This document shows, one piece after another, positions 19,352 to 52,553 of a DNA stretch of 55,114 nt. The DNA is taken from NCBI GenBank assembly GCA_033549065.1, contig JAWSUE010000014.1, positions 10,573-65,686 of the forward strand, in the 5' to 3' direction. The position numbers were made by a program, and so were the translations under genes. The DNA comes from Bacillota bacterium. GTDB taxonomy: Bacteria; Bacillota; Dethiobacteria; DTU022. The number at the start of each line of letters is the position of its first letter. Within the stretch, counting starts at the first letter, position 1. The notes beneath the pieces are model-generated. The model was not told where the DNA came from. It saw only the letters and a list, made by a program, of their open reading frames with translations, and made no database searches.

Positions 19352-20410
19352 TCAGCAAATTGTAATTGTCCCGGGTTGTCCCTCCGTGATTCGTCCAATT
19401 ATAGTTCCGGCTTCCCCATTGCTCTTTAAAATCTTCCGGAATTGCTCCGCCTTCTCTTCAGGCAGGGCAACCAGAAGACCGCCCGAAGTTTGCGGGTCGG
19501 ATAATATCATCAGTTCATCGTCTTTTACCTCTTCCGGTCCTTTCCAGGTGATCTGCCCTTTCATATATTCAAGATTACGGTAAGCTCCTCCGGGTATCAT
19601 GCCCATTGAAACCATCTCTCTGACCGACGGATAGAGAGGCACTTTTTTAAATTCAATCTCAGCTGAAACCTGGCTGGAAAGAAGCATTTCATGCAGGTGA
19701 CCCAGCAGACTGAATCCTGTTATGTCTGTACAGGCCGAAACACCGATCTCAACCATTGCCCGTGATGCAGAGGCATTGAGGGCAGTCATCCCTTCAACCA
19801 CCACAGAAGCGTCTTGTTCCCGCAGAATCTCGCCCTTGATAGCAGTTGCAATGATTCCCGTACCCAGAGGCTTGGTTAATACCAGAATATCACCCGGACG
19901 GGCTCCACTGCCGGTAATAAGGCGGTCAATGTAAACCAGGCCGGTCACGGAGAGACCGTATTTCGGTTCCTGATCCTCGATACTGTGCCCGCCAACAACA
20001 ACCGCTCCGGCTTCGCTTACCTTATCATATCCGCCGCGCAGGATCTCTTCCATGATCTCCAGCGGCTGGCAGGATACCGGAAAACAGATGATGTTCAGCG
20101 CTGTTAACGGTCGGCCTCCCATGGCGTATACGTCGCTAAGCGCGTTGGCGGCGGCAATCTGCCCAAAAGTATAGGGATCATCTACAATCGGCGTAAAAAA
20201 ATCAACAGTCTGAACCAGGGCTTCAGTTTCGGATATACGGTAGATCCCCGCATCGGAAAAATGCTGTTCCCGGTTCAGGTAGTTGGGATCATCAAACTTA
20301 GGCAGGCGGCGCAGAACCTGCGCCAGGGCCTCAGGCCCGATTTTGGCCGCTCAGCCGGCGCTCGAAGTCATGCTTGTCAATCTTATCTCTTTGCGATCGA
20401 TTGTAATCAC
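19352..20410 (-). CDS. selD: Selenide, water dikinase, a selenoprotein (in-frame UGA = Sec20)
   Basis: Read through one TGA at 20351-20353, the frame gives a full 352-residue SelD, which makes selenophosphate from selenide and ATP. Translated upstream of the TGA: V-I-T-I-D-R-K-E-I-R-L-T-S-M-T-S-S-A-G, then U, then A-A-K-I-G-P. Sec20 sits at the catalytic Cys17 position of the E. coli enzyme, and Lys23 matches Lys20. The family's L-S-D-V-Y-A-M-G-G motif follows near residue 90. The start is a GTG at 20410, and selB ends 13 bases upstream. The shorter frame from 20122 would lack the whole catalytic N-terminus. Sec in SelD is known in several lineages. Confidence 0.93.
20308..20353 (-). promoter_or_regulatory. 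Candidate bacterial SECIS downstream of the selD UGA
   Basis: After the UGA (20351-20353) the mRNA holds a 7-bp perfect stem GGCGCAG / CUGCGCC with a GUU loop (20308-20324), its loop beginning about 33 bases after the UGA. A second, smaller hairpin, GGGCC / GGCCC, lies between (20326-20338). The loop-proximal GCAGGUUCUGC resembles the GCAGGUCUGC of the E. coli fdhF element. SelB binding is inferred. Confidence 0.6.
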
Positions 20411-20423
20411 CGCCTTTATCTTT

Positions 20424-22343
20424 TTATTTTGGAGCAAGCAGAACCCTGTAATCTTCAACACGCCTGGTGTACTTCACCTGATCAAAGTGCTCAAGAAGCG
20501 CCTGGGCAAACTTTCGGGAAGTGCCGCTCTTGTCCCTGAATTCAGCCAGAGTCATTTTAGCATTGGTCCTGAAATGTTCGGCAATTATCAAGCGGGCTTC
20601 CTCGTAAGCATCCTTATGAAAGAAGAGCTCGTCAGTTACTTTGTAAAGTACTTTTTTGCCCTGCAGGTAATTAAAGAACTCATCCTTACGATCCTGTTTC
20701 AACCCTGATTTTTCAAGAACTTCTCTTAAACCTGGAGGCTGCAGCCCGCTCTTTCGGTATAAATCAATTATTGTATCCAGTTTGTTCTGATCGACTGCCG
20801 AGGGTTCCGGTTGATAACCATGTATAGAAACATATTCTCCCCTGGATGCCACTTTCTTTTCCGTCTGCAGTTTATCCAGAAGGGCATCGTAATCACGCTG
20901 GCTGATCCCTCCCGGTAAAAACCCCTTCAGGCTTGCCCTCGACATGCCCGGTGAGAGCGGCTGTCGCGAATGTACTTTTTGTAGTTCATCTACCAATTTG
21001 TCAGCAACATTATTCAGAACAGCAGAAAGAACAAATGAACTGCCCAGCGGAACTGCTTCGTCATTTGAAACAAGCGTTTCAACCATTTTCCCTACTTTAG
21101 TTTGGTCAAGACGAGTTTCCCTGGCCAGGCGGTTTATGTCGGCAATGATCAGTTCTTCCAGCTTCCGGCGGACGATTACAGTATCATCGTCACCAGCAGC
21201 AGCAGAATCAAGTTCCAGCAGGCTGTTTATAACCTGTTCGCGAAAACGGCGGTGGCGCTGAGGGTAAGGATCAAGAACTTTCCCTCCACCAATCGTGGTC
21301 ATGGGCGAATAGGAGCGAATGACAAAAGGGTCTCCTCTTTCAGTAACCAGGGGCTTATCAAGGCGGCACTGGGCAAGAGTTTTTTCACCTGGTTTGAGTT
21401 CATCCCGGTCCAGCAGCAGTACCCTGGCTACGCTGCGGGCGGTGCCTAAAAAGAAATGAACGGGATCGAGGTTTTTCAATCCCCTCGCAGCCCGGGGGAG
21501 TAGTTCCACAGAAACATCGATCAATCCTGTTTCCCGGTAAAACCCGGGAACGCTGACCACGCTGCCACGCATAATCTGGCTTTTTTCAAGACCTGACAGG
21601 TTCAGGGCAACCCTGGTTCCGGCCCTGGCTTCCTTAAGATCATCATCATGAACCTGGATATTGCGGACCCTTGCTTCCACGCCAGGCGGGACCACAGCAA
21701 CAGTATCGCCTACCTTAACCGATCCCTGGATCAGGGTCCCGGTAATAACCGTTCCAAATCCGGCTATGACGAAGGAACGGTCAACAGGCAGGCGAAGCGG
21801 CCCGGCGGTATTTCTTGGTTTTATTCCTGTCGTCTGACGATCTATTAAATCTTTGAGCTCTTCGATTCCCTCGCCGCTGATCGCCGAAACAGCATGAATG
21901 GGAGCTTCCTCCAGAAAAGTTCCCTTAAGTTCTTCGCCGATCTCTTCCCTGACAAGTTCACGCCAATCTTCCTCGACCAGATCGATCTTGGTGATTACCA
22001 CTATACCGTTTTTTATGCCCAGAAGCTCCAAAATATCGAGATGTTCCCTGGTCTGGGGCATTACTCCTTCTGAAGCATCAACAACCAGCATAACCAGATC
22101 CATTCCGGCTGCTCCGGCCAGCATATTATGAATAAATCTTTCATGGCCGGGGACATCAACTACTCCGGCAAGCCTGCCCCCGGGCAGGCGGAATGGCGCA
22201 AACCCAAGATCGATGGAAATACCTCTCTCTTTTTCTTCCTGAAGGCGGTCAGTATCGACACCGGTCAGAGCCTTGATCAGAACCGTTTTACCGTGATCAA
22301 CATGGCCGGCCGTGCCAATAATCAGATCATCCAATATTCTCAT
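20424..22343 (-). CDS. selB: Selenocysteine-specific translation elongation factor SelB
   Basis: A 639-residue GTPase that brings Sec-tRNA to UGA codons marked by a SECIS. The N-terminal G1 motif G-H-V-D-H-G-K-T is at about residues 13-20, D-V-P-G-H-E near 63 and T-K-I-D near 117, followed by EF-Tu-like beta domains. The C-terminal 250 residues are winged-helix repeats that bind the SECIS hairpin. The ATG at 22343 is one base after GGGAG; a TTG three codons later is 10 bases away and may be the true start. It lies between selA and selD. Confidence 0.95.
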
Positions 22344-22364: not shown

Positions 22365-23792
22365 TTAATCCAACCCTGCAAAAGCATCTTTCACAGCTTC
22401 AACCAGTAGATCTTCCTGCTCTTCAAAAATAGTCCGGGGATCAAAGAGCAGGCTTTCCTGCTGAAGGCGGGCGATCACCGGTGGATGGCCGGAACGGAGT
22501 TTTTCAACAACTTTTTCAGAGTTTAGATCACTGGCGCTGAAGCTGATAGAAACAAGTGATGTGGGCAGGTCGGCAGTAGGCAGGGCCCCACCGCCAACTT
22601 TCGAAAACCCTTCGATTACCGAAACCTTGAACCCGGGGATCGCTGCAGAAAACTGAGCGGCGATTTTACCGGCACGCTCGTTTAATAATTGCGGTTCAGC
22701 GGTCAGCATTCGCCAAACGGGTATATTATTCGCTGCTGTTTTTTCGTCAAGGTAGAGGCGCAGTGTTGCTTCCAATGCAGCCAGGGTAAATTTATCAACC
22801 CGCAGTGTCCTGGCAAGTTGATTACTGCGCATATAGGTAATCAGGTCCTTTCGTCCGACCAGAATTCCGGCCTGGGGGCCACCGAGCATTTTATCACCAC
22901 TAAACGTGACAATATCTGCACCATCTTTGATGCTGTCCTGAATCCGGGGTTCTGCCGGCAGTTTGAATTGTTCCAGATCCAGCATTACTCCACTGCCCAG
23001 ATCTTCAATAGATATAATGTTATATTTTTGGGCCAACGCTGATAACTCTGATGTTTCGACCTCTGCCGTAAAACCGATCATGTGGTAATTACTGGTATGC
23101 ACTTTCAACAATGCTGCGGTATTCTCGTTTATTGCCGCTTCGTAATCACGGAGGTAGGTCTTGTTGGTCGTACCAACTTCTACCAGGCGGGCTCCACTGG
23201 CTTTCATTATCTCCGGTATACGGAAGGAGCCGCCGATTTCTACCAGCTGACCGCGGGAAACGATTACTTCCCTTCCCGAGGCTATTGTATTTAAGGCAAG
23301 AAATACTGCAGCAGCATTGTTATTGACCGTTAAAGCAGCTTCAGATCCGCAAAGCTCACAGATCAGTTCTTCAACATGGACCTGACGTGAACCCCGTTTG
23401 CCGGTTTCCAAATTCAACTCGAGGTTGTTATAGTTTTCGGCAACTGCGATTAGCGCGTTGACTGCAGAACGGGCCAGGGGAACCCTTCCCAGGTTGGTGT
23501 GAATGACAACACCGGTTGCATTGATCAAGGCTTTCAGGTTTGTTTCAGCATATTTTCTGGCCAGTTCGAGAGCTGTTTCAGCTATTGAACCAGCAGAAAG
23601 ATCGATTTTTCCCAGCTGCCCGGGGTTATCTCTGTGTTCGTTAATCAGTTTGCGGTATAAATCCACTGCATCCTGAGCAGCCTGAAGAACCTGCCTCCTC
23701 GGGATATAAAGCAGCGCCTCTTCTAGAAGCGGATCACGCAAAAGGGAATCTATCGCCGGTAATTTTCTTAACAAGGTATTAAAGTCACTCAT
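22365..23792 (-). CDS. selA: L-seryl-tRNA(Sec) selenium transferase
   Basis: A 475-residue pyridoxal-phosphate enzyme converting seryl-tRNA(Sec) to selenocysteyl-tRNA. The PLP lysine is in F-S-G-D-K-M-L-G-G-P-Q-A-G at about residue 299. Other family blocks: G-V-V-I-H-T-N-L-G-R near 94 and N-N-N-A-A-A-V near 156. Length is usual. It is the first gene of the selA-selB-selD run, 21 bases before selB. No tRNA(Sec) gene (selC) was found within the window. Confidence 0.95.
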   Translation of the reverse strand: MSDFNTLLRKLPAIDSLLRDPLLEEALLYIPRRQVLQAAQDAVDLYRKLINEHRDNPGQLGKIDLSAGSIAETALELARKYAETNLKALINATGVVIHTNLGRVPLARSAVNALIAVAENYNNLELNLETGKRGSRQVHVEELICELCGSEAALTVNNNAAAVFLALNTIASGREVIVSRGQLVEIGGSFRIPEIMKASGARLVEVGTTNKTYLRDYEAAINENTAALLKVHTSNYHMIGFTAEVETSELSALAQKYNIISIEDLGSGVMLDLEQFKLPAEPRIQDSIKDGADIVTFSGDKMLGGPQAGILVGRKDLITYMRSNQLARTLRVDKFTLAALEATLRLYLDEKTAANNIPVWRMLTAEPQLLNERAGKIAAQFSAAIPGFKVSVIEGFSKVGGGALPTADLPTSLVSISFSASDLNSEKVVEKLRSGHPPVIARLQQESLLFDPRTIFEEQEDLLVEAVKDAFAGLD

Positions 23793-47087: not shown

Positions 47088-48317
47088 ATGGGAAAACCAT
47101 GGGAAACAAAAGATTGGTTTGTCAGTTTATGGAACTATGCACCGGAGGTTACCAGTGGTCTTAATTTTGCTCCAAAAATTAAGATTCACGATGTAACCCT
47201 TCGCGACGGTGAACAGCAGGCCGGTTTGGCTTTTAACTACGATCAGAAAATACGGATTGCCGAACATCTGGCCGAGCTGGGTGTGCATCGTATTGAAGCG
47301 GGAATGCCTGCTGTATCGGATGTAGACACCAAGGTTATCAAAGACATTGTTAAGCGTAACCTGGGACCGGAAATTTTCGTTTTCGGCCGCTGCATGGTCG
47401 ATGACGTTAAAAGAGCAGTAGATTGTGGTGCATCCGGAATTGTAATCGAAATTCCTTCCAGCGAACATATTATCAAGTATGCTTACGGCTGGTCACTGGA
47501 GAAAGCGATTGACCTATCAATTACGGCAACCCAGTTTGCCAAAGAAAACGGCCTTTACACCGTATTCTTCCCCATTGATGCCAGCCGCGCCGATATGGAC
47601 TGGGTTATTACCCTTCTTGAAAAAGTGGCTACCGAAGGCCATATGGATGCCCTGGCCCTGGTTGATACTTTCGGAGGGCTTTCCCCCCATGCCATTCCCT
47701 ACCTGGTATCTAAAATTAAAGCAAAAATTAATAAACCCCTGGAAGCTCATTTCCACAATGACTTCGGAATGGGGACAGCAAATACCATCATGGCTCTGGC
47801 TGCAGGCGTAGACGTTGCCCATACCACCATTATGGGTGTGGGAGAGCGTTGCGGTAATGCTCCATTCGAAGAAGTCGTGGTATCGCTGCTTGCACTCTAC
47901 AATAAGGATATTGGTATCAACACCAAGCATATCTATAAAACCGCAAAACTTCTTGAGGAATTCACCGGCATCAAGATTGCCCCGAACAGAGGGATCATCG
48001 GCGACAGGATTTTCCACGTTGAAGCTGGTATTATCGCCAGCTGGTTCAAAAACTGCATCGATAACCATCCCCTGGAACTCTTCCCCCTTAACTGGGAATT
48101 GGTCGGCCAGGAGAATCCTGATGTAGTTCTCGGCAAGAGCTGCGGAATAGATTCGGTTGCCATGTACCTCTCCAGAATTGGCAAATCAGATCAACTTGAT
48201 GAAGAGCAGAAGCTTGCCGTTGTTAATAAGATCAAAGCCAAGTCAATGGAAATAGGCGGCCTGATCAATATGGACGAGTTTAATGATATTGTCGATGAAG
48301 TAAAAGCAGGCCGGTAA
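47088..48317 (+). CDS. DRE-TIM metallolyase family enzyme (LeuA/NifV/HMG-CoA lyase-like)
   Basis: A 409-residue barrel enzyme of the isopropylmalate/homocitrate/citramalate synthase family. The signature D-V-T-L-R-D-G-E-Q-Q is at about residues 33-42, and the metal-binding H-F-H-N-D-F-G-M-G near 222 with a later N-A-P-F-E-E near 264. There is no C-terminal LeuA regulatory domain, so it is closer to homocitrate or citramalate synthase or to aldol-type lyases. GGAGG lies 7 bases before the ATG. The next gene encodes a 2-hydroxyacid dehydrogenase. The substrate cannot be read from the sequence. Confidence 0.85.
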   Translation: MGKPWETKDWFVSLWNYAPEVTSGLNFAPKIKIHDVTLRDGEQQAGLAFNYDQKIRIAEHLAELGVHRIEAGMPAVSDVDTKVIKDIVKRNLGPEIFVFGRCMVDDVKRAVDCGASGIVIEIPSSEHIIKYAYGWSLEKAIDLSITATQFAKENGLYTVFFPIDASRADMDWVITLLEKVATEGHMDALALVDTFGGLSPHAIPYLVSKIKAKINKPLEAHFHNDFGMGTANTIMALAAGVDVAHTTIMGVGERCGNAPFEEVVVSLLALYNKDIGINTKHIYKTAKLLEEFTGIKIAPNRGIIGDRIFHVEAGIIASWFKNCIDNHPLELFPLNWELVGQENPDVVLGKSCGIDSVAMYLSRIGKSDQLDEEQKLAVVNKIKAKSMEIGGLINMDEFNDIVDEVKAGR

Positions 48318-49403: not shown

Positions 49404-50150
49404 ATGCCGGATTTAACAGACAGGATTATTGATTTCGCACGAAGCAAGGGGGCAGATCTGGTTGGTATAGCAGATGCTGATTCTTTTTTGATTCAGGATG
49501 AGCAGAACAAATTTTGCCCCCGATTTTACCTGCCGGAAGCTAAAAGCGTGATAGTGATTGGACTGAAGCTGGTAGACTCGATATGGGACCGTTTAACCGG
49601 AAATTACGACCCGTACAGTACCAATTTACACAGCTATTTAATGCACTACAATTATGATCAACTGGATTTCATCTCCTGCCAGGTTGCCCGATTTCTTGAA
49701 GATATTGGTTACGATGGTTATCCGATTGAAGCCAGGACTGAAACAAAAAGCGGTAAAGTTTTCGTCGGCCTTTTTCCATTTAAAGAAGCTGCTGTTCTGG
49801 CCGGCATGGGCAGAATCGGAAAAAGTTCTTTACTGATAACTCCTGAATTCGGACCACGGGTCAGGCTGACTGCAGTTATCACGGATGCACCGCTTGATAC
49901 CACAATTGAAGCAGAGCCGGGAACGGTCGAAGATGTATGCAATTCCTGTACACTCTGTATCGACCAATGCCCTGCCGGAGCCATCAGTTATGACAAAGAA
50001 AAAAAAGTCACTGTTATCGACAAGGAAATGTGCCAGGCGAGAATGGACTGGGCTCAATGTGCCCTCTGTCAGGGAGTTTGTATCCTTGGTCACAAGGCAG
50101 CAAAAAAAAGAAGAGAAAGAAAAACCAACATATACTACATGGGGTTTTAA
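49404..50150 (+). CDS. QueG-like 4Fe-4S protein (epoxyqueuosine-reductase family)
   Basis: A 248-residue protein. The ferredoxin motif C-N-S-C-T-L-C-I-D-Q-C-P-A-G-A-I is near residues 178-193 and C-Q-A-R...C-A-L-C-Q-G-V-C near 212-228, giving two cluster sites. The N-terminal half resembles the cobalamin-linked QueG/reductive-dehalogenase fold, but the B12-binding part is short. QueG is usually longer (about 380 residues) and is not normally found in such a cluster, so another reductive role is likely. It is followed by a second, related gene two bases downstream. Confidence 0.75.
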   Translation: MPDLTDRIIDFARSKGADLVGIADADSFLIQDEQNKFCPRFYLPEAKSVIVIGLKLVDSIWDRLTGNYDPYSTNLHSYLMHYNYDQLDFISCQVARFLEDIGYDGYPIEARTETKSGKVFVGLFPFKEAAVLAGMGRIGKSSLLITPEFGPRVRLTAVITDAPLDTTIEAEPGTVEDVCNSCTLCIDQCPAGAISYDKEKKVTVIDKEMCQARMDWAQCALCQGVCILGHKAAKKRRERKTNIYYMGF

Positions 50151-50152
50151 TC

Positions 50153-50950
50153 GTGAAGAAAAACAGGTTAATATCCATAATCGAAGCATTTGTAGCAGGC
50201 GACAGGGGAAACAATCTACCGGGCAAAAATATTCATGTCTTCGAAAAACCAATTGTTGCCTTTGCTTCTGCTGACGATCCTCTATTCGTTGAGCTGAAGG
50301 AACCTGATGTTGTCGGGCCTACTCATACCCTGCCTACTGACTGGGTCAGCGATGCTAATACAATTATATCTTACTTTTTACCGATTAATCATCAACTTGT
50401 CGAGACAAATTATTCCGGGACAAGCAGTTCTGAAGATTGGGTTTATGTGCGTTTTTATGGTGAAGACTTCAACAATCGTCTCAGGCAGGTAATCGTCTCT
50501 GCCCTTCAGGCTGAAGGATATAGCGCGGTAGCACCTTTAATTTCTTCGGGATATTCGGTAAAAAACTTTAGAAGTAATTGGTCCGAAAGACATGTTGCAT
50601 TCATTGCCGGAATAGGTTCCTTTGGGCTTAACCGGGGAATTATTACTGAAAAGGGATTGGCCGGAAGGCTTGGCAGCGTAATAACCAACCTCGTACTGGA
50701 ACCAACGGTAAGAACTTACAAAGAAATTAATGAACGCTGTCCCTGGTATGATCAAAACAAGTGTGGTGAATGTATAAAGCGCTGTCCCTCGGGAGCCTTA
50801 ACCCCTGAAGGAAAAGATATTGCCAAATGTGACAATTTCCTAAAGAATATTGAGGGTGAGAAAATCAGAGCTATTTATGGTTTTCCTTTCTCTCCCTGTG
50901 GAAAATGTTTTGTAAATGTGCCATGTGAAAGTCAAATCCCTGAGAGATAA
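50153..50950 (+). CDS. Second QueG-like Fe-S protein, divergent paralogue
   Basis: A 265-residue protein. The C-terminal motif C-G-E-C-I-K-R-C-P-S-G-A-L is near residues 204-216, preceded by N-E-R-C-P-W-Y; a second cysteine group (S-P-C-G-K-C-F, then P-C-E-S) closes the protein. The segment A-F-I-A-G-I-G-S-F-G-L-N-R-G near 147 parallels the G-M-G-R-I-G-K-S-S block of the upstream gene, so the pair are paralogues. The start is the GTG at 50153, two bases after the preceding stop codon; upstream codons of the frame lie inside that gene. Role unknown; coupled to its neighbour. Confidence 0.72.
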   Translation: MKKNRLISIIEAFVAGDRGNNLPGKNIHVFEKPIVAFASADDPLFVELKEPDVVGPTHTLPTDWVSDANTIISYFLPINHQLVETNYSGTSSSEDWVYVRFYGEDFNNRLRQVIVSALQAEGYSAVAPLISSGYSVKNFRSNWSERHVAFIAGIGSFGLNRGIITEKGLAGRLGSVITNLVLEPTVRTYKEINERCPWYDQNKCGECIKRCPSGALTPEGKDIAKCDNFLKNIEGEKIRAIYGFPFSPCGKCFVNVPCESQIPER

Positions 50951-51168: not shown

Positions 51169-52491
51169 CTAATAAACGCCAGGCAGTCCACAGACGATTA
51201 GATCTTTCTTAGGCCATCTATAGAATACATCAAAACCGTCATCAGTAATAACCCCACAATGTTCGACCTTCACACCATCCTTGGCCCAACGATCACCGAG
51301 CCAGGTAAAAACTCCAACTTCAACTGCAAAGGTCATATTCTTTTCGAGTTTACCGGCAGGGAAGGATCCCATAAACTGCCCGCTCTGTCCCGCTACGGTA
51401 TGTCCGGGGTCACCTGAGCGAAGACCGATTGGATGAGCAGTTGAGCCATAAAAATACCGACCCGGTTCAGGCCACTCGGGTATTCTGCCCCATAAGCCGG
51501 GTTCATCCCCTTTTGCCAACCATTCCTGCTGGACATCGCTGGTTGTAATGCCTGGCCTGAAACATTCCGTCATTGCTTTAAGACCTTCATAAGCTACATT
51601 GTATACTTCTTTCTGGAATTCGGTAGCCTTGTCACCGACAAGGTATGTATTATAAAATCACGTTCGATAACCATTGAAGCTCACACCGTTGATATCCAAA
51701 ATGACCATGTCACCAGGCCTGACTCGTCTATCGGTAGGCATATTCGGGACACCATAACCAGACCTTTCTCCGGAACATACAACAAAACTGGGACCTTCAA
51801 GTTCTTCTGCTCCATGCCTATAACAACCGTTTGCTGCTATACCGGCAATTTCCAGTTCAGTTATACCCGGACGCAAAGCCTGGCAAACATCCCAATGAGC
51901 AGCTTCCACAATTGTTCCAGCCATCCGCAAGCAATGAATTTCATCTTCAGTTTTAACACTGATAGCATCAGCCATGCAGGTATTACCATCAGTTATGTTT
52001 ATCCCCGCACGTTCACAGGCTTTTAACATGTTATGACTGGAAACATCAATTCCACAAGGTAAATCAAGAACATCATGTTTTTTCAGAAGCGCCTTAATTT
52101 CTTCGGCAGTTTCGTCAAAGTAGCCGGGCATAAATTCGGGAGCATCGGGACAGCCCTGGCACAATTTATAGACCTTCGAAGTCTTAAGAACCATTTTTCC
52201 TTCAAACCAGGGCATCCTTGGGCGTTCCCATTCGCCATTGAGGTGATCGACTGGCACATAGGGGAACCCCTGATCCCTGATTAAAAGAACAAAGGTGCCG
52301 AGACGGCGCCTTGCATACTGGTGGAAAGAGTAATAACCTAGATAACGATGGTAATCGTAATCATAGAGTATAAGCGCTCCCAACCCATGCTTCTTCATGG
52401 CCTGCTGCGCTTTTTCTACCCTTTCCCTGCGCATCCGCTCCGGGTTATACGGGCGATGCTCGTAATCTACCGCAAACTGTCCGTATTGCAT
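51169..52491 (-). CDS. M24-family (Xaa-Pro peptidase/creatinase-fold) protein with in-frame UGA, candidate selenoprotein
   Basis: One frame of 440 residues runs through a TGA at 51658-51660 (residue 278). Both halves fit one M24 protein: an N-terminal creatinase-type domain, then the pita-bread fold with a metal Asp near 266, a His near 353 (T-A-H-P-I-G-L) and Glu residues near 391 and 410. The UGA is in G-Y-R-T-U-F-Y-N-T and aligns with the second metal Asp of aminopeptidase P (G-Y-A-G-D-I-T-R-T); related proteins carry Cys there as I recall. A 7-bp hairpin with loop GGU follows the UGA. The alternative is a pseudogene or base error. GGAGG is 10 bases before the ATG, and the next gene diverges. 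Confidence 0.72.
51627..51660 (-). promoter_or_regulatory. Candidate bacterial SECIS downstream of the M24 UGA
   Basis: The mRNA after the UGA (51658-51660) folds into a perfect 7-bp stem CCUUGUC / GACAAGG with loop GGU (51627-51643); the loop starts 21 bases after the UGA. The UA / UA flank adds two more pairs beyond a bulged C. A G at the loop start and this distance fit the published bacterial SECIS rules. Confidence 0.6.
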
Positions 52492-52523
52492 ATCAGCTTT
52501 GCCTCCTTAGTCATCTTTTCTGA

Positions 52524-52553
52524 ATTATAGCATGTCTGACATGCATAAATCAA
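52524..52553 (-). promoter_or_regulatory. Promoter of the M24 gene with palindromic operator in its spacer
   Basis: Minus strand: TTGATT (52548-52553), 18-base spacer, TATAAT (52524-52529). The spacer holds the palindrome GCATGTC-T-GACATGC (52530-52544), the T-G-T-C-x-G-A-C-A type bound by FadR-subfamily regulators. Confidence 0.7.

Follow-up and report, generated by a model that had tools for sequence, protein, structure and literature searches.

The stretch of DNA analyzed in this study (hereafter, the window) comprises 55,114 nucleotides of a contig from a Bacillota bacterium. Its minus strand carries a gene of the M24 fold with an internal TGA codon, referred to here as the Sec-M24 gene, as well as genes for the synthesis and insertion of selenocysteine (Sec). 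The features relevant to the following analyses are:

51169..52491, minus strand: Sec-M24 gene, 440 codons with a lone internal TGA and TAG as final stop; the Pfam M24 domain spans the UGA
51658..51660, minus strand: UGA codon, putatively recoded as Sec at residue 278 (U278); Cys in relatives
51627..51643, minus strand: candidate bacterial SECIS (bSECIS) hairpin CCUUGUC-GGU-GACAAGG, 7 bp, 3-nt loop GGU, -8.7 kcal/mol
52502..52509, minus strand: ribosome-binding site TAAGGAGG, ahead of the start codon ATG at 52491
52524..52553, minus strand: Sigma-70-like promoter match TTGATT-18-TATAAT, a consensus match only (10/12, TG before the -10)
22365..23792, minus strand: selA, selenocysteine synthase, identified from the ORF sequence, not by profile search
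20424..22343, minus strand: selB, Sec-specific elongation factor, identified from the ORF sequence, not by profile search
19352..20371, minus strand: selD, read through its own UGA; start provisional, native stop TGA
20351..20353, minus strand: UGA (Sec) codon of SelD in the context SSAGUAAK; UGA used as Sec on this contig

The TGA at 51660-51658 (codon 278) is the sole in-frame stop of the minus-strand frame 52491-51169, and the read-through protein places U278 in the context GYRTUFYNT. The Pfam profile PF00557 (Peptidase_M24) matched residues 187-417, across the UGA, with an E-value of 2e-32 and 113 bits (gathering score 23). Homology is present on both sides of the UGA within one conserved domain, as is required of bacterial selenoproteins. 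Thus, the reverse-strand reading and the Pfam result both agree with the initial annotation, which had described one in-frame TGA in an otherwise open 440-codon frame. A split gene without readthrough, encoding a 277-residue N-terminal and a 134-residue C-terminal protein, is extremely unlikely: both ORFs appear in the mechanical ORF list, but the catalytic domain would be severed between metal ligands, the C-terminal ORF begins at an internal Met well beyond the UGA, and no split homologue was found among the relatives examined. Since both flanking neighbours are oriented opposite to the Sec-M24 gene, the latter probably forms its own transcription unit; promoter-type consensus matches occurred in the region in numbers near those expected by chance. 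On the plus strand, the frames 49404-50150 and 50030-50950 overlap, the first featuring weak matches to 4Fe-4S domains and the second having no Pfam match; they may represent two related genes or one gene with a frameshift.

All four genes needed for Sec decoding in bacteria, selA, selB, selC, and selD, were found in the genome, with selC being located outside the window and scoring 72 bits (Rfam cut-off 47). The presence of SelA, SelB, and SelD on the contig, as previously claimed, was borne out by the ORF sequences and by the read-through of selD, whose UGA lies within the window and had gone unmentioned. Furthermore, two formate dehydrogenases (FdhA) with an in-frame UGA are encoded elsewhere in the genome (G000 contigs 8 and 9; L070 and L073). 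A reassignment of the genetic code, with TGA being a sense codon, was ruled out, as TGA terminates 10 out of 43 listed ORFs. Two further observations concern selenoprotein-related genes of the window: the standard ORF call places the start of SelD too late, at 20122, and a C_GCAxxG_C_C putative redox protein (PF09719; 43022-43591, minus strand), whose family has Sec forms elsewhere, is encoded here by a plain open frame.

The hairpin following the UGA was found as described in the initial annotation, with 7 bp, a GGU loop, and a beginning 15 nt past the UGA. It is separated from the UGA by 14 unpaired bases, and the spacing from UGA to loop is 21 nt. The bacterial SECIS model requires a loop of 3-9 nt, a stem of 4-16 bp, a spacing of 16-37 nt, a G among the first two loop bases, and a minimum free energy of at most -7.5 (PMC13188914), and the hairpin of the Sec-M24 gene complies with all of these rules (3 nt, 7 bp, GGU, 21 nt, -8.7). 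Under lenient bSECIS rules, 15-16% of coding positions pass. Due to this high background, the hairpin alone is weak evidence, the case being carried by the coincidence of UGA and Cys codon described below; the lenient rules were dropped as stand-alone evidence and replaced by a stricter test, in which the loop had to begin with GGU, the stem had to contain at least 7 Watson-Crick pairs, and the spacing had to be correct. Of the 6,247 other codon positions in the window, none had such a hairpin; among synonymous recodings, the share was 0.4%. The hairpin was absent from five close Cys-encoding relatives under the same test, and the Cys paralogue of the same genome, with a near-identical peptide at this site, forms only four such pairs. 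Loss of the hairpin in relatives had been named beforehand as evidence against a selenoprotein; the Cys relatives indeed do not have it, but this is to be expected because Cys forms need no SECIS, and the element in the Sec gene obeys the SECIS rules. The predicted apical loops of the two FdhA SECIS elements are GGUCU and GUCU (the latter being GGUCUU with its closing G-U pair open), so a loop beginning with GGU seems to be a trait common to the Sec-M24 gene and both FdhA elements. An Rfam scan of the window gave no match, this library scan being no test of bSECIS.

To a large extent, the interpretation of the UGA depends on the residue at position 278 in related proteins. Cys was found there in 26 out of 27 subfamily relatives, Asp occurring in the remaining one, rather than the random residue that would have spoken against the initial proposal. 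These relatives reach down to approx. 28% identity and include members from Actinomycetota, Alphaproteobacteria, a Haloferax plasmid, and several bacterial phyla; the plasmid tblastn search returned only relatives of approx. 30% identity, which were used in the Cys count. Wherever codons were read, Cys was encoded by TGT or TGC. In contrast, all 21 ordinary M24 relatives, sampled from the same family and order, featured Asp at this position. A paralogue on contig 10 of the same genome shares 79% identity, has no stop, and encodes Cys at 278, and the genome-contig scan yielded relatives in other bins with identities of 82, 83, 65, and 67%. The motif GYRTC[FY]YRT is present in the paralogue and in the close relatives from other bins. 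The Sec protein contains 13 Cys positions (U read as C), among which 278 alone is conserved family-wide.

The subfamily so defined, labelled no more precisely than 'Xaa-Pro peptidase family protein' where it is annotated, and bearing GY[RK][TS]C[YFV]YRT, matches the Sec-M24 protein in length and architecture, with the nearest members at 65-83% identity (examples are the own-genome paralogue G000:C10, L033, L034, L035, and L056-L060). Its D, H, E, E ligand positions are the same; it differs in encoding Cys (TGT/TGC) where the Sec-M24 gene has Sec (UGA). By sequence comparison, a Cys branch exists within M24, and the Sec-M24 gene is a Sec member of that branch. The branch is widespread (L056-L060, L063-L069, L079-L081), has haloarchaeal and plasmid members, and is without an NCBIfam model of its own.

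These relatives also bear on the possibility that the UGA arose from a base-calling or assembly error in an ordinary Cys member, the true codon being TGC or TGT. A single base turns Cys into TGA, and the record consists of one assembly of 61 contigs. However, the Cys relatives offer 162-197 single-substitution routes to a stop, just one of which is TGA at codon 278, and the stop nevertheless falls on the invariant Cys codon. Taking into account that the adjoining GGU-loop hairpin of 7 bp occurs at none of the 6,247 other coding positions and that the genome decodes Sec, an error is considered very unlikely.

A second UGA-containing member was not found in 1,631 genome look-ups (overlapping draws from relatives, class, phylum, and other phyla), nor was a UGA copy present in the genome-contig scan that yielded the close relatives, and viral contigs contained no relative. 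Within the own genome, a degenerate pattern around the UGA matched nothing but the Sec-M24 gene and a second site on the contig. The UGA was therefore seen in one species, this genome holding the sole Sec member found in these look-ups. Conservation in more than one species is a supporting rather than a defining feature, because a single species may be the only one with a Sec form, and its lack only lowers confidence. The view that M24 is not an established selenoprotein family was supported: none of the 119 prokaryotic selenoprotein families or subfamilies catalogued in a 2026 review is an M24 protein or a peptidase (PMC13188914), and no M24 or creatinase selenoprotein was found in a search of open-licence papers.

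In the maximum likelihood tree, the Sec gene and the Cys paralogue of its own genome were sisters (support 97/97), within a clade of six whose other five members are all Cys proteins. Both the Sec and the Cys copy are thus retained in one genome. According to this topology, Sec appears to have derived from a Cys ancestor and not straight from an Asp enzyme. The initial annotation had aligned Sec with a metal-binding Asp; the enzyme directly ancestral to the Sec form, however, carried Cys.

The existence of an intact, 79%-identical paralogue raises the possibility of a recent pseudogene, in which a nonsense mutation struck a redundant copy while the contig 10 paralogue does the work. In addition, R281N, three residues after Sec, is the lone change at otherwise invariant columns of a 25-sequence alignment and could reflect relaxed constraint. 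On the other hand, the branch of the UGA copy is shorter than that of the paralogue (0.097 compared to 0.18), a second lesion is lacking, and the ribosome-binding site is intact. The pN/pS values relative to the paralogue were 0.147/0.821 upstream and 0.151/0.821 downstream of the UGA; judged by these ratios, purifying selection is equal on either side and the Sec-M24 gene is not decaying. Moreover, a chance stop would seldom hit the invariant Cys and bring a SECIS along, which renders pseudogenization highly improbable. R281N may alternatively represent co-adaptation, as Arg may promote the ionisation of Cys and no longer be required once Sec is present (pKa 5.2 for Sec and 8.3 for Cys; PMC13188914); this is only a suggestion, because Arg is also present in the Asp-type ordinary M24 members.

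Regarding the metal site, residue 278 aligns with residue 271 of the Escherichia coli aminopeptidase P (APP). The structure 2bwu represents the Asp271Ala mutant of this enzyme, and the letter opposite residue 278 is the mutant Ala, in agreement with the previous placement of Sec on the second metal Asp. In Pa-PepP of Pseudomonas aeruginosa, Asp271 binds both Mn ions, MnA being coordinated by His354, Asp271, Glu384, and Glu408, and MnB by Asp260, Asp271, and Glu408 (PMC5723419). The ligand positions D266, H353, E391, and E410 are retained in Sec-M24 and in every relative covering them. Accordingly, four out of five members of the canonical D, D, H, E, E set are kept, and the replacement of the second Asp by Sec (Cys in the subfamily) sets the protein apart from canonical M24 enzymes. 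Sec at 278 stands where the bridging carboxylate is located, and metal binding by Sec is predicted from the Asp homologues. In formate dehydrogenase and [NiFeSe] hydrogenase, Sec likewise serves as a metal ligand, the role proposed for Sec-M24; these are Mo/W or Ni redox enzymes, none of which has the pita-bread fold (PMC13188914).

Alternatively, Sec may act as a nucleophile or redox residue of a real selenoprotein instead of binding metal. In favour of this option, some creatinases have an M24 fold that lacks catalytic metals. Many catalogued selenoproteins are, furthermore, thiol-redox enzymes (PMC13188914). However, the four other metal-ligand positions are conserved in Sec-M24 and in the relatives covering them, the protein has no CxxU/UxxC motif, and position 278 corresponds to the bridging ligand in APP and to a ligand in the dimethylsulfoniopropionate (DMSP) lyase DddP. 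A nucleophilic or redox role is thus regarded as unlikely, and metal coordination is the preferred reading.

Among solved structures, the best profile match was obtained for DddP (4s01; E-value 1.7e-38). Foldseek, applied to a predicted model, also ranked DddP first, followed closely by prolidases, ectoine hydrolase, and creatinase; the model, built from five sequences, is of modest confidence (pLDDT 66), and only the fold match was used, not site distances. DddP is a di-iron enzyme of the M24 fold (PDB 4b28 and 4s01) and hence shares the fold of Sec-M24, but Asp307 occupies the Sec/Cys position and Asp297 serves as an additional ligand. In RdDddP, the ligands comprise Asp295, Asp297, Asp307, His371, Glu406, and Glu421, with iron as the metal (PMC4108388). 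DddP is a C-S lyase, and such an activity is not implied for Sec-M24. Aminopeptidase P and prolidase (M24B) share the fold and metal-ligand pattern at approx. 20-30% identity, whereas their Asp271, which binds both metals, is replaced by Sec in Sec-M24. The NCBIfam equivalogs for DddP (61.4 bits, cut-off 600) and for Xaa-Pro aminopeptidase and dipeptidase (58 vs. 465 and 55 vs. 630 bits) all scored below their cut-offs, and no NCBIfam model claims the Cys/Sec M24 subfamily. By these matches, the subfamily appears at least as close to DddP as to peptidases, and 'peptidase' is best regarded as a putative label. Of the initially proposed creatinase/Xaa-Pro variant with altered metal or redox chemistry, the Sec form was upheld; the peptidase identity and the redox chemistry are to be taken as putative.

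Genes for branched-chain-type ABC transporters, CN-hydrolase, metallo-beta-lactamase fold proteins, DUF362, UPF0261, PEP-hydrolase-like and HMGL-like proteins, and GntR/FCD regulators were found in the neighbourhoods of the close Cys members. A gene for an HMGL-like (homocitrate-synthase-type) protein of 409 aa is located near Sec-M24 (47088-48317) as well as near the L033 Cys gene (L033:1968-3197), and is a possible pathway partner of the M24 gene. Overall, these neighbourhoods are more suggestive of the catabolism of small molecules than of protein turnover.

As a working model, Sec-tRNA would be delivered by SelB at UGA278, and the complete protein of 440 residues would hold a one- or two-metal centre formed by D266, U278, H353, E391, and E410. 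A selenolate would take the place of the carboxylate that bridges both metals (Asp271 in aminopeptidase P, Asp307 in DddP), and this softer, fully ionised Se ligand might lead to a preference for metals like Fe(II) or Zn(II). In an anaerobic catabolic pathway, the Se-liganded centre could then tune the hydrolysis of a small substrate of the amide or amine type, or an elimination reaction on it. Most likely, a metal-bound water or base at the one-selenolate centre would attack a C-N bond of the small substrate; the main alternative would be a lyase reaction resembling that of DddP.

The UGA at a Cys codon, the SECIS-like hairpin, the Sec machinery, the purifying selection, and the conservation of the other ligands can be read directly from the DNA. 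Taken alone, the statement that the Sec-M24 gene encodes a true selenoprotein is very probably correct on these grounds, and the initial selenoprotein reading was largely upheld by the Cys relatives, the metal-ligand alignment, and the Sec machinery. The whole account, namely a real selenoprotein representing the Sec form of a Cys-type M24 (pita-bread) subfamily, together with the proposals for its metal centre and Cys origin, is considered likely. The further-reaching proposal, that Sec bridges a non-redox di-metal hydrolase/lyase centre of the pita-bread fold in a new selenoprotein family, beside an uncharacterised, widespread Cys-ligand M24 branch, has about an even chance of being right.

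The majority of known selenoproteins are redox enzymes; if true, Sec in an M24 metal site would add a new fold to the list of selenoproteins. The widespread Cys-ligand M24 branch, whose members are annotated as Xaa-Pro peptidases, is probably misnamed, and automatic annotation tends to split or drop the Sec-M24 gene. The occurrence of a Sec and a Cys enzyme in one cell would permit a direct comparison of the benefit of selenium in a metallohydrolase-type centre.
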